A DNA stretch of 64,000 nucleotides from Trichocoleus desertorum NBK24 (GTDB lineage Bacteria; Cyanobacteriota; Cyanobacteriia; FACHB-46): positions 2,122,628 through 2,186,627 of the forward strand of contig NZ_CP116619.1 of the NCBI RefSeq assembly GCF_030409055.1, written 5' to 3'. The position numbers and the translations under genes were made by a program. Shown here one piece after another: positions 53,864-63,600 of the stretch; positions within the stretch are counted from its first letter, which is position 1, and the number at the start of each line of letters is the position of its first letter. The notes beneath the pieces are model-generated. The model had not been told where the DNA came from and searched no databases. It saw only the letters and a program-made list of their open reading frames with translations.

Positions 53864-54613
53864 ATGACAAACTGGCAACTGCGCAGCTCGCTGCTGAAAT
53901 CTGGTCTAATTATCGGACTGGCAACTGTCATTGGCCTTGGTGGCAATATGGGTGTGGCTCTGGTAAATAGCCAAAGCGCGATCGCCCAAGAACAAGCTCC
54001 TGCCGAAGAAATGCCCACGGAGGAAATGCCTGCCGAGGAAATGCCTACGGAAGAAATGCCTACGGAAGAAACTCCGGCTGAGGAGATGCCCGCTGAAGAA
54101 GCTCCCACTGAACAATCTTCTGAACAGCGATCGCTGCCGATTGTGCTTATATCTACTGCTGGAGAAACTGCTAGCACCAGAGCCATTCCTGGCTACCAGA
54201 GCCGCTTTAGCCAAATTTTGGGTAGTGGTGCCTTACTGCTAAATAACGAAGATCAAGTCACAGGATATTACTTCACCACTACAGGTCTAGAACCTAGCCA
54301 AACCCTGCCCTATCACTTCCATGCAGCCATGACTGGTGCGAACCCCACTAGCTGCGAAGGAGATAAAGCCCTCATAGACTCCGAAGTAGGTGGCGGTGTA
54401 ATTACAGATTTAGCTGCGATCGCGCCTTTGCAATCCAGTGCAGGTGGTGTAGGTCGGGTAGGTTCACCATTTAGCCCAGTGCAACTACCCAGCCCTGTAG
54501 CCCTACAGGACGTTGGTTACTTGAACATTCACTCCACCCAAGGAACTCCAGTGGGGCCTGGGATTGTCTGTGCCAACGTGCGTCTAGATCCTGCTGGCTT
54601 CATGCGCAAATAA
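53864..54613 (+). CDS. Secreted protein with acidic PxEEM repeats and CHRD-like domain
   Basis: The 249-residue protein has a signal peptide (hydrophobic core SGLIIGLATVIGLGGNMGVA, cleavage near SAIAQ). A repeat region of about 38 residues follows (53997-54114), built on the 5-residue units PAEEM and PTEEM in imperfect 15-base repeats. The C-terminal domain (about 90-249) contains LPYHFHAAMTGANPTSCEGD, ALQDVGYLNIHSTQGTPVGP and GIVCANVRL, resembling the CHRD/superoxide-dismutase-like beta-sandwich. It is probably periplasmic or wall-associated; function is unknown. Confidence 0.75.
   Translation: MTNWQLRSSLLKSGLIIGLATVIGLGGNMGVALVNSQSAIAQEQAPAEEMPTEEMPAEEMPTEEMPTEETPAEEMPAEEAPTEQSSEQRSLPIVLISTAGETASTRAIPGYQSRFSQILGSGALLLNNEDQVTGYYFTTTGLEPSQTLPYHFHAAMTGANPTSCEGDKALIDSEVGGGVITDLAAIAPLQSSAGGVGRVGSPFSPVQLPSPVALQDVGYLNIHSTQGTPVGPGIVCANVRLDPAGFMRK
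53997..54114 (+). repeat. Minisatellite of 15-bp units inside coding sequence
   Basis: About eight imperfect copies of a 15-base unit (for example GAAGAAATGCCTACG) encode PAEEM/PTEEM. Such arrays can change length by slippage without breaking the frame. Confidence 0.85.
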
Positions 54614-59260: not shown

Positions 59261-60124
59261 CTAGAAGTCCTCTAAAAGAGAACTGAGTCGGCTCAGGATC
59301 GGATCAGATTCGTGAGATGAAGCTGCTATGGTTGCTTTGGGCGGTGGCTCCTTGAAGACCAAGACAGGCTCAGGGGTACCGTGGGCATCAGTGAGGCCAG
59401 CCTGAGTTGAAACGGGTTCTGCTGGGATTGCAGCCACGCTAGGGGAAGGAACTGAAACGGGTGGGACTGGCTGATGCTGGCTGAATCGAGATTGTAAATC
59501 CGCAAACTGCTGAGAAATTTTAGTCTCGATCGCCTCAACTTGGGTCGTCAAGTGGACGAGCTGGCTAGTCAATTGATTGAGATATTCCGTCGTTGGATTG
59601 TTGGTCGGTTGTTTCCAGCTAGAGAGTTGAGTTTGAACCGTTTCTACTTGCTGCTGAAGGTTGGTATTACTTTGCTCAACCCCCTGTAATAACTGCATAA
59701 GCTCTGATAAGAAGTCTGTGGGATCTACTACAGAAGTAGATGGCAGCGCCGAAATTCCAGCTTGTAGCTCTGAAAAACCGCGATCGCCCTTGGCATGCAA
59801 CGCCTCTAACTGCTGAATAGTGTGTACTAGTTGTTGCTTTAGCTCATCTAAGCGCTGAGATTGACTAGTGAGTAATTTAGCTTCTAGTTGGGCTACTTGC
59901 TGCTGAATAGGCGCTAGAACTGCTTCTAAGTCAATATTAGAGTTGGCAAGTTGGGCAGATTCGGTATCTAGTAAGGCCTGCTGTAGCGCTTGCTTACAGA
60001 GGTCGCTGAAACTGTCGTACTGCTCCTTGGTCAATGCTTGCTCGATCGCCGCCAGCAAAGTTTGGTCAGCAGCTTCCGGAGTAAACGTAATAGATTTATT
60101 CGTCTTTTTTGCGGGGGTGGGCAT
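59261..60124 (-). CDS. Coiled-coil protein with ribbon-helix-helix-like N-terminus, possible ParR-like partner
   Basis: The 287-residue protein begins with KSITFTPEAADQTLLAAIEQ and SFSDLCKQALQQALL (about 10-50), suggestive of a small RHH DNA-binding fold. A long coiled coil rich in Gln, Leu and Glu follows (about 60-215), then a Pro/Val/Ser linker and an acidic end. It follows the ParM-like actin gene by five bases on the same strand, the order of parM-parR. It may be the adaptor between filament and DNA; the RHH call is by eye. Confidence 0.65.
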   Translation of the reverse strand: MPTPAKKTNKSITFTPEAADQTLLAAIEQALTKEQYDSFSDLCKQALQQALLDTESAQLANSNIDLEAVLAPIQQQVAQLEAKLLTSQSQRLDELKQQLVHTIQQLEALHAKGDRGFSELQAGISALPSTSVVDPTDFLSELMQLLQGVEQSNTNLQQQVETVQTQLSSWKQPTNNPTTEYLNQLTSQLVHLTTQVEAIETKISQQFADLQSRFSQHQPVPPVSVPSPSVAAIPAEPVSTQAGLTDAHGTPEPVLVFKEPPPKATIAASSHESDPILSRLSSLLEDF

Positions 60125-60129
60125 GGCAG

Positions 60130-61233
60130 TCAGACCTGGGTGAGTTGAGGGTTAACAGTTGCCAGTTGAGCGCGGCCATAGAGGTATTGGCCTAAGGCGT
60201 TGGCCTTGCGGGATGGTTGGGCCAGGTGAATCCGCAACTGCGCTTCCTCTAGTAAGGGTTGAAAATCTGGCCAGAAAAATTCGCCACCCCCACCACTGAC
60301 GATCACATCTGTAACCCGCTCCGGAAGCCAAGCGATTAAACGGTTCGACAATTCACGCGCAAAACTTTTACGCAGGCTAGGCAGAATGGTATCTAGATCA
60401 GTAGGACGAGTGGCACCACGAGGCCGATAAAACCGTTGTCCCTGAGGCCGATTCACCACTTCGATTAACGACAAAGATTGGCTGTCTGCACCTTGAATTT
60501 GACTCGCCACTTGGTCGTAAAACTGGTTCATGGCAAAAGGTTCGCTCTTAGAGGCTCCCCGCGCAAACCGGAAGCGATCGACCATGAGAAAGTCGGTAGT
60601 TTGGTGACCAATATCCACGATCGCCACTGACAGATTCGGCAAGTCAGGACTCTGAGCCTCTTTTTCCTGCGCTTCACACCAAATCAAACTGCCATAGCCT
60701 TCGGGCATCACCCAAACTTGCTGAATATTGACCGCGATCGCTTCGCCTCGATAAGACAACACATGAGGCGATCGCAGCAGGCCAATCAATTGTTCTTTTT
60801 CGCGATCGAATTGCTCTTGAGAGTGATAGGGCAAGCCTAGAACAATGGCTAAGTCGCCTGAGAGATTGAAATATCCAATACAAGCTAAAACCTTCACTAG
60901 CGCATCTTCGACCTTAGATTGCCCCACGCCTAAGTTGGCTCCAAAGTCTGCTGCTAATTGGCCGATCGCGTAACCTCGGCCTTGATGCTCTAGCCAAATA
61001 TCTAACAGCGCATCCGTAGAGCGGGACTCAAACCCACCCCGACGCACCTGATCAACGCTGAGATGCGCTACATTGGCCGCAATCAGCACGACATCATCGG
61101 CATAGCGGCTGACACAGGCTTTAGTAGAAGTTCGCCCTAGGTCAATACTTAAAACCGACGTGTGGTTGGACTGACCATTGAGTGAACTGGTCAGTGAATT
61201 AGAGGGTTGTCTGGCAGTCATCGAATTATTCAC
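60130..61233 (-). CDS. ParM/StbA-like actin-family ATPase
   Basis: The 367-residue protein has the actin-fold motifs in order: phosphate 1 SVLSIDLGRTSTKACVSRYA (about 26-45), phosphate 2 VAIVDIGHQTTDFLMV and adenosine VTDVIVSGGGGEFFWP. The N-terminal 25 residues are a polar Ser/Asn tail. Plasmid ParM forms filaments that push DNA copies apart with ParR bound to parC. Here the gene sits among chromosomal housekeeping genes (gltX, ftsH), so it may have another cargo. It leads the RHH/coiled-coil gene. Confidence 0.82.
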   Translation of the reverse strand: MNNSMTARQPSNSLTSSLNGQSNHTSVLSIDLGRTSTKACVSRYADDVVLIAANVAHLSVDQVRRGGFESRSTDALLDIWLEHQGRGYAIGQLAADFGANLGVGQSKVEDALVKVLACIGYFNLSGDLAIVLGLPYHSQEQFDREKEQLIGLLRSPHVLSYRGEAIAVNIQQVWVMPEGYGSLIWCEAQEKEAQSPDLPNLSVAIVDIGHQTTDFLMVDRFRFARGASKSEPFAMNQFYDQVASQIQGADSQSLSLIEVVNRPQGQRFYRPRGATRPTDLDTILPSLRKSFARELSNRLIAWLPERVTDVIVSGGGGEFFWPDFQPLLEEAQLRIHLAQPSRKANALGQYLYGRAQLATVNPQLTQV

Positions 61234-61713
61234 CTCTCGTTTAAATTCTTAACTGTGCATGCCCTGGCTTCCGCTCCTAGAAACTGATTCGAGTACCTGG
61301 GAGGGATGGTTGAATGCCGAAAATTCGGTAAAGTTTTGAGGTAGGTGTTTAGGAAATTGCTCCTAGATGAAGGTTTGAATCTGGCTGAACTGAATGCTGG
61401 GTCAGTCTAGTTCTAGTGAGCCTAGAGCGATCGCTTTTTTCTGACTTCAGCTTTATAGTACAAAAGTACTATATCCCATGTTTATGAGGAGACAACCCCC
61501 TATAGTTGCTCCAATCCTGATAATTAAGTTAAATTTGATTAAGAATCTGTTCTAACCGCTCCTGAGCAAGTTCCTGCAAACCTGAGCTTGTTAGATATGA
61601 AACTAAGGGAAATTTATTTATCGACCCTTGATTCAAAAACTTATTCTGCGGGTGAGATGACTCGCTCACGCCGAATCTAGCTGTTGTGCTCCGTATATAG
61701 AGGCCACTAACTT
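61234..61713. promoter_or_regulatory. Divergent ParM-like/ftsH control region
   Basis: This 480-bp gap holds promoters of the ParM-like operon and ftsH. It contains the perfect inverted repeat TATAGTAC-AAAA-GTACTATA at 61454-61473. GCTCCTAGA appears at 61273-61281 and again at 61359-61367. I do not see regular iterons of the parC kind. Confidence 0.45.
61454..61473. promoter_or_regulatory. 8-bp perfect inverted repeat, possible operator
   Basis: TATAGTAC and GTACTATA flank AAAA, about 240 bp upstream of ftsH. The AT-rich loop and symmetry suit a dimeric regulator or a weak hairpin. Confidence 0.4.
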
Positions 61714-63600
61714 ATGAAATTGTCCTGGAAAACAGTGCTGCTGTGGGCACTGCCCGCTGTGGTCATCGGTTTCTTCTTTTGGCAAGGCGCTTTTGCTCCC
61801 ACTCCAGTAGATATGAGCAGCAATGCGGCGAGTACCCGCATGACCTACGGTCGCTTTCTGGAATATTTAGACACAGGTCGAGTCACAAGTGTTGACCTCT
61901 ATGAAGGAGGACGGACAGCAATTGTAGAAGCGGTTGATCCAGAATTAGACAATCGGGTGCAGCGGCTGAGAGTAGACCTACCTGGTAACGCTCCAGAACT
62001 GATTTCTCGCCTGAGAAACGACAAAATCAGTTTTGATGTGCATCCGCCTCGCAATGATGGTGCCATCTGGGGCTTGTTGGGCAACCTAGTCTTTCCCATC
62101 TTGCTCATCGCTGGGCTCTTCTTCTTGTTCCGTCGCTCTAACAACGTGCCAGGTGGTCCGGGCCAAGCCATGAACTTTGGTAAGTCACGGGCTCGCTTCC
62201 AAATGGAAGCCAAGACTGGCGTGATGTTCGATGATGTGGCTGGCGTGGAAGAAGCCAAAGAAGAATTGCAAGAAGTCGTTACCTTCCTGAAGAAGCCAGA
62301 GCGCTTCACGGCGGTTGGAGCCCGCATTCCGAAGGGTGTACTGCTAGTTGGCCCTCCGGGAACGGGTAAAACTCTATTGGCTAAGGCGATCGCGGGGGAA
62401 GCGGGCGTACCCTTCTTCAGCATCTCTGGTTCCGAGTTCGTGGAAATGTTTGTTGGTGTGGGTGCGTCTCGCGTCCGTGACCTGTTCAAGAAAGCCAAGG
62501 AAAATGCTCCTTGCATCATCTTTATCGATGAAATTGACGCAGTGGGTCGTCAGCGAGGAGCAGGCATTGGCGGTGGCAACGATGAGCGAGAGCAAACCCT
62601 TAACCAGTTGCTCACCGAGATGGATGGCTTTGAAGGCAACACTGGCATCATCATTATCGCGGCCACCAACCGTCCTGATGTCTTAGACTCGGCGCTGTTG
62701 CGTCCCGGTCGCTTTGACCGTCAAGTTACAGTGGATGCTCCCGATATCAAGGGCCGCGTAGAAATTCTGCAAGTCCATGCCCGCAACAAGAAGCTATCTG
62801 ACGAAGTTTCGATCGATTTGGTGGCTCGTCGGACTCCTGGCTTCACAGGTGCAGACTTGGCGAACTTGCTGAACGAAGCTGCTATCCTAACCGCGCGTCG
62901 CCGGAAAGAAGCGATCACCATGCTAGAAATCGATGACGCAGTCGATCGCGTGGTGGCTGGGATGGAGGGTACGCCTCTAGTTGACAGCAAGAGCAAGCGC
63001 CTAATCGCCTATCACGAAATTGGTCACGCCGTAATTGGCACCCTGGTCAAAGCACACGACCCCGTACAGAAAGTAACTTTGATCCCCCGTGGACAAGCTC
63101 AAGGCTTAACCTGGTTTACCCCTAGCGAGGAGCAAGGTTTAATTTCCAAAGCCCAACTGATGGCTCGCATCATGGGAGCCTTGGGCGGTCGGGCGGCTGA
63201 GGAAGTGATCTTCGGTGACGCTGAAGTTACCACTGGCGCTGGCAACGACCTGCAACAAGTCAGCAGCATGGCACGGCAGATGGTGACTCGGTTCGGGATG
63301 TCTGACTTAGGGCCTTTGTGCCTTGAAAGCCAATCAGGTGAAGTATTCTTGGGCCGCGACTTGATGACTCGCTCGGAGTTCTCCGATGAGATTTCGTCTC
63401 GGATCGATGGTCAAGTTCGCTCGATTGTAGAGCACTGCTACGATGAGTCTCGCCGCATCATCCGTGAGAACCGCACTGTAGTCGATCGCCTAGTGGATCT
63501 CTTAATCGAGAAAGAAACTATTGATGGCGAAGAGTTCCGTCAGATTGTAGCTGAATACACCGTCGTACCTGAAAAAGAACAGTACGTACCTCAGCTTTAA
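61714..63600 (+). CDS. ftsH: ATP-dependent zinc metalloprotease FtsH (FtsH2 type)
   Basis: The 628-residue thylakoid/plasma-membrane protease has two N-terminal membrane helices (about 5-24 and 112-133), an AAA+ domain with Walker [12 protein letters not shown] (about 212-222), Walker [12 protein letters not shown] and [21 protein letters not shown], and a zinc site HEIGH (about H434-H438) with the third ligand Asp in TGAGNDLQQ. The N-terminus [20 protein letters not shown] fits FtsH2, which degrades damaged D1 in the PSII repair cycle. It is transcribed alone and ends at a strong terminator. Confidence 0.96.

Follow-up and report, generated by a model that had tools for sequence, protein, structure and literature searches.

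A chromosomal actin and its coiled-coil partner in Trichocoleus desertorum very probably form a divergent FcmBC (CorMR) cytoskeleton

What does a gene pair with the layout of a plasmid partition system do among chromosomal genes? The question is raised by a ParM-like actin gene and its partner in the cyanobacterium Trichocoleus desertorum NBK24, found in a 64,000-nucleotide stretch of contig NZ_CP116619.1 (hereafter the window). Both open reading frames were verified on the minus strand in parM-parR order (Table 1), separated by the five bases 60125-60129, as a first-pass annotation of this DNA had described. The same annotation placed the pair between gltX and ftsH, and the neighbours are indeed a hypothetical gene adjoining gltX on one side and a divergent ftsH on the other. 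The genome is rated 99.99% complete, and the contig is a single sequence of 5.46 Mb. Since this is the size of a chromosome, the alternative that the contig is a plasmid is excluded in practice; together with the gltX and ftsH neighbours, it means that the plasmid location typical of ParMRC systems is not found here.

The actin probably starts at ATG 61221 rather than at GTG 61233. The GTG sits within a Shine-Dalgarno-like sequence, AGAGGTGA, from which the ATG is properly spaced, and relatives begin with 'MT' at the same place. The ATG is therefore preferred.

Table 1. Coordinates of the features discussed (window positions, or locus:positions for other genomes)
Feature	Position	Strand	Remarks
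fcmB/corM	60130..61221	-	ParM-derived actin-like ATPase, 363 aa from ATG 61221; ORF extendable to GTG 61233
fcmC/corR	59261..60124	-	partner of the actin, 287 aa; named from NCBIfam NF052682 and position 3' of fcmB
FcmC head, residues 8-56	59957..60103	-	conserved; extended strand and two helices, RHH-like layout
FcmC coiled coil, residues 61-216	59477..59944	-	variable length; predicted helices 66-126, 135-170, 178-216
FcmC linker, residues 217-272	59309..59476	-	fast-evolving; pLDDT mostly <55; dN/dS ~0.9-1.1
FcmC C-terminal tail, residues 273-287	59264..59308	-	short, amphipathic, SDPILSRLSSLLEDF; helix 275-284
fcmB-ftsH intergenic region	61222..61713	.	between divergent genes; without iteron array (no parC)
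ftsH	61714..63600	+	conserved divergent neighbour; context, outside the system
Fused FcmB	L147:3527-5053, L148:3146-5047, L149:3584-5113		plasmids
Fused FcmB	L041:5832-7361, L042:4581-6161		chromosomal or draft contigs
Same module fused to four GUN4 repeats	L160:2171-4474
Same module with dynamin-like GTPase (Dynamin_N)	L161:1996-4746		Pfam
Same module with dynamin-like GTPases	L162:1284-4103, L163:2988-5690, L164:1912-4671		by resemblance

Comparison with protein family models provides the main clue to the identity of the pair. Against the NCBIfam models of FcmB (NF052678, cut-off 300 bits) and FcmC (NF052682, cut-off 90 bits), the actin and the partner score 639 and 126 bits, respectively. 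Models thus exist for both proteins and both are passed, so the earlier view that the pair is unlike known systems no longer holds. The FcmBC/CorMR system, which derives from plasmid segregation and governs cell shape in filamentous cyanobacteria, is in fact already known, having been published in 2025. Residues 5-359 of the actin also match the solved structure named "CorM" (PDB 9rmi) with an E-value of 4.8e-154, and in our reading of these sequence matches CorM and FcmB would be one family. The likeness to CorMR rests on this match; for the system itself a 2025 preprint by Springstein et al. (doi 10.1101/2025.06.27.661541) is represented here by its title, as cited in PMC12752495. We therefore consider, with a probability of roughly 0.93, that the pair is the ParM-derived FcmBC (= CorMR) cytoskeleton of cyanobacteria, working by the published mechanism. 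If so, it adds a divergent orthologue to a cytoskeleton whose first description dates from 2025.

The actin itself shows the nucleotide-site motifs conserved in FcmB/CorM: the DLGRTSTK, PEG and DIGHQTTD-type motifs are invariant over 18 relatives, and GGGGEFF is also present and aligned with those relatives. With a dN/dS of ~0.02-0.04 within the genus, the gene is, as judged by its sequence divergence, under strong purifying selection. Its nearest named FcmB relatives come from MAGs and from Oculatellaceae/Leptolyngbya-type cyanobacteria. In a quick phylogenetic tree with long outgroup branches, it clusters with two genomes of the same genus; this group falls within the clade of chromosomal FcmB, at a large distance from ParM of the plasmid type. 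MreB, according to published work, shares with FcmB the actin fold, cortical filaments and a link to rod shape, but it is a separate gene in this genome (G000:C1:2863165), which has one FcmB, and no match of the MreB_Mbl domain (PF06723) to FcmB was found in the Pfam scan at E-values up to 1.

The conservation of the pair in cyanobacterial chromosomes had been put forward for checking. FcmB was found above the cut-off in 62 of the 386 sampled genomes of the phylum and in none of 14 controls, and in 79 of 80 named loci it is followed downstream by FcmC, encoded on the same strand. Of the window neighbours that were tested, ftsH alone is widely kept: it adjoins fcmB at 41 of 100 loci, and gltX is nearby in 8. 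The preservation of the ftsH neighbourhood indicates that the locus is old and chromosomal.

What this system does is known from Nostoc punctiforme (Nguyen et al., mSphere 2025, PMC12645912), the one species for which membrane filaments and shape control have been shown. There, FcmB forms membrane filaments round the cell, FcmB and FcmC interact, and the membrane placement of FcmB needs FcmC. Both proteins are required for rod shape, which is lost on deletion, and the distribution of nucleoids without FcmBC is normal. The N. punctiforme pair (Npun_R4472/R4471) resembles the present one in passing both NCBIfam models, in gene order and in chromosomal location. It differs in that FcmC here, at 287 aa, has a much longer coiled coil; identity to Nostocales members is ~60% for FcmB but only ~35% for FcmC. 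The role in the present organism would be carried over from these orthologues. Accepting this, FcmB, an actin that binds ATP and descends from ParM, would polymerise into filaments; FcmC, in the place of ParR, would deliver these filaments to the cytoplasmic membrane rather than to plasmid DNA; and the resulting cortical filaments around the cell circumference would restrict cell width.

The first-pass annotation was right about a ParM-like actin, a chromosomal partner in the position of ParR and a link to plasmid systems. The cargoes that it proposed (a chromosomal region, a megaplasmid, thylakoids or polyhedral bodies) find no counterpart in the cortical, width-setting filaments of the orthologues (PMC12645912) or in the DNA around the pair, which has no parC-like iterons. 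Because the N. punctiforme filaments are membrane-bound and needed for rod shape, with nucleoids visibly unaffected, the pair most likely positions neither DNA nor organelles and represents no novel type of system. In principle, cargo of any kind could be carried by an actin pair that lacks a DNA site, and the literature explains only incompletely how cell shape is set. Such a MamK-like positioner of thylakoids, carboxysomes or polyphosphate bodies is nevertheless very improbable given the cortical localisation and the shape phenotype in N. punctiforme, and no cargo gene is linked to the pair here, ftsH being the only neighbour, of those tested, that is widely kept.

The partner had been described as long and mostly coiled coil, and this was borne out: the 133 family members range from 108 to 326 aa with a median of 166, against 287 here. 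The pattern derived here for FcmC/CorR, a conserved head and a conserved C-terminal tail around a variable coil, is found in the partner as well. Its length comes close to the upper limit of a variation typical of the family, that of a coiled-coil spacer, and the architecture is the same. From these conservation patterns, head and tail may be the working ends of FcmC and the coil a spacer of tunable length. Thus the partner gains a testable anatomy of fixed head, variable spacer and fixed tail.

In the head, F14, F39 and K44 are invariant (45 sequences), and the AlphaFold model places helices at 18-32 and 39-52. A ribbon-helix-helix (RHH) N-terminus had been suspected, and the strand-helix-helix layout of the model fits it. 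No significant RHH match was obtained in PDB and Pfam searches using FcmC or its head. In the full-length model the coiled coil would have outweighed everything else in a comparison of folds, so the head was used; with it, Foldseek returned three PDB hits, the first and third of which are ParD RHH domains. As these stand at E 5.8 and 9.0, the RHH fold is compatible with the modelled head and weakly supported, rather than proven. The head would dimerise via such an RHH-like fold. The linker is probably disordered, as its model confidence indicates. The tail is almost invariant (DPILSRLSSLLEDF), its dN/dS is near 0, and within the genus it is unchanged or nearly so; DF or EF ends the protein in 133 of 133 relatives, and the hydrophobic moment peaks at 277-287. 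It may be the end that binds FcmB, as an analogy with ParR would have it, or else the membrane end.

Could the long coil mean that an FcmBC orthologue has shifted its function, with FcmC tying the membrane filament to a further layer such as the thylakoid or the cell-wall machinery? Two genomes of the genus encode FcmC proteins of 287 and 292 aa, against a family median of 166, which is what such a shift might look like. However, the sister genome of the same genus (G386) has an FcmC of 240 aa, from which ~50 coil residues are absent and in which head and tail are kept. The extra length is therefore easily gained or lost, and we regard a shifted function as unlikely.

A working chromosomal ParMR system, in which FcmC binds a centromere and FcmB pushes so as to position a chromosomal region or a megaplasmid, would account for the ParM-type actin, the partner in the ParR position and the RHH-compatible head. 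The plasmid ParMRC loci of the same phylum (L170-L183), in which a small gene for the partner likewise comes after that of an actin-like ATPase, offer an internal control. Copies of a 10-mer in the 400 bp upstream of parM or fcmB were counted and compared with shuffled sequences. The plasmid-type loci have 4-7 copies in 7 of 13 cases, and 4 of 13 exceed every shuffle. Upstream of the window's fcmB, the best 10-mer has 2 copies, the same as in shuffles; a repeat search of this region also gave no array, and no iterons were found downstream in the window either. For the FcmB family as a whole, 129 of 134 upstream regions have three copies or fewer, and five (L063, L066, L138, L140 and L141) have 4-5. 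Thus, measured against plasmid-type loci of its own phylum, the window's locus has no centromere of the kind that a partition system should have. Moreover, the ParRs of these plasmid-type loci belong to another family, and FcmC has no profile kinship to them (hhalign probability 0.1%). The genome is a single contig in which the FcmC head occurs once, and nucleoids are distributed normally after deletion of the orthologues (PMC12645912). Taken together, DNA segregation by the pair appears highly improbable.

Repeats of another kind were seen elsewhere. In a Tychonema relative, the one case checked, a heptamer tandem array, (TTAGTTG)n, lies 3' of fcmC (L084:7746-8007), and other Microcoleus-type loci also carry many repeat copies 3' of fcmC. 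Such arrays were considered and rejected: they are absent from the window and not family-wide.

Several FcmB copies in Nostocales are longer (508-633 aa) and carry an N-terminal module of predicted hydrophobic/membrane and coiled-coil character, with no adjoining FcmC (Table 1). The phosphate-2 motif is altered in several of them (for example, DIGHQSIHM and DIGHQNINM), and in the plasmid records the genes are annotated with starts that exclude the module. The module was found in 30 of the 193 sampled genomes of that family, and it is also fused to GUN4 repeats and to dynamin-like GTPases. It is conceivable, though doubtful, that FcmC is a membrane adaptor with a coil of free length, replaced in places in Nostocales by self-anchored second FcmB copies that act as caps or nucleators of FcmB filaments.

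It has been published that FcmBC is absent in unicellular strains. FcmBC was observed in a MAG contig labelled Gloeomargaritaceae (L068:3756-5278), possibly a contamination, and in two loci, L033 and L034, the latter on a single contig of 3,049,282 bp (genome G241); these belong to the related genome family f18, which may be unicellular. The FcmB proteins of L068 and G241 group together (93% SH-aLRT). If f18 is Gloeomargaritaceae, the published statement needs revision. The membrane-fused FcmB variants and the presence in Gloeomargaritaceae, should it be real, would be informative about the working of the system. Another non-filamentous label is that of a Xenococcaceae MAG with FcmBC on a 32-kb contig (L078:5950-7831), again possibly a contamination, and where a MAG bearing the label Thiomargarita contains a cyanobacterial FcmBC (L101:733-2158), a binning error is probable. 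Finally, positions 53864-54613 of the window encode a secreted-looking protein with a stretch of acidic (P/A)TEEMP tandem repeats.
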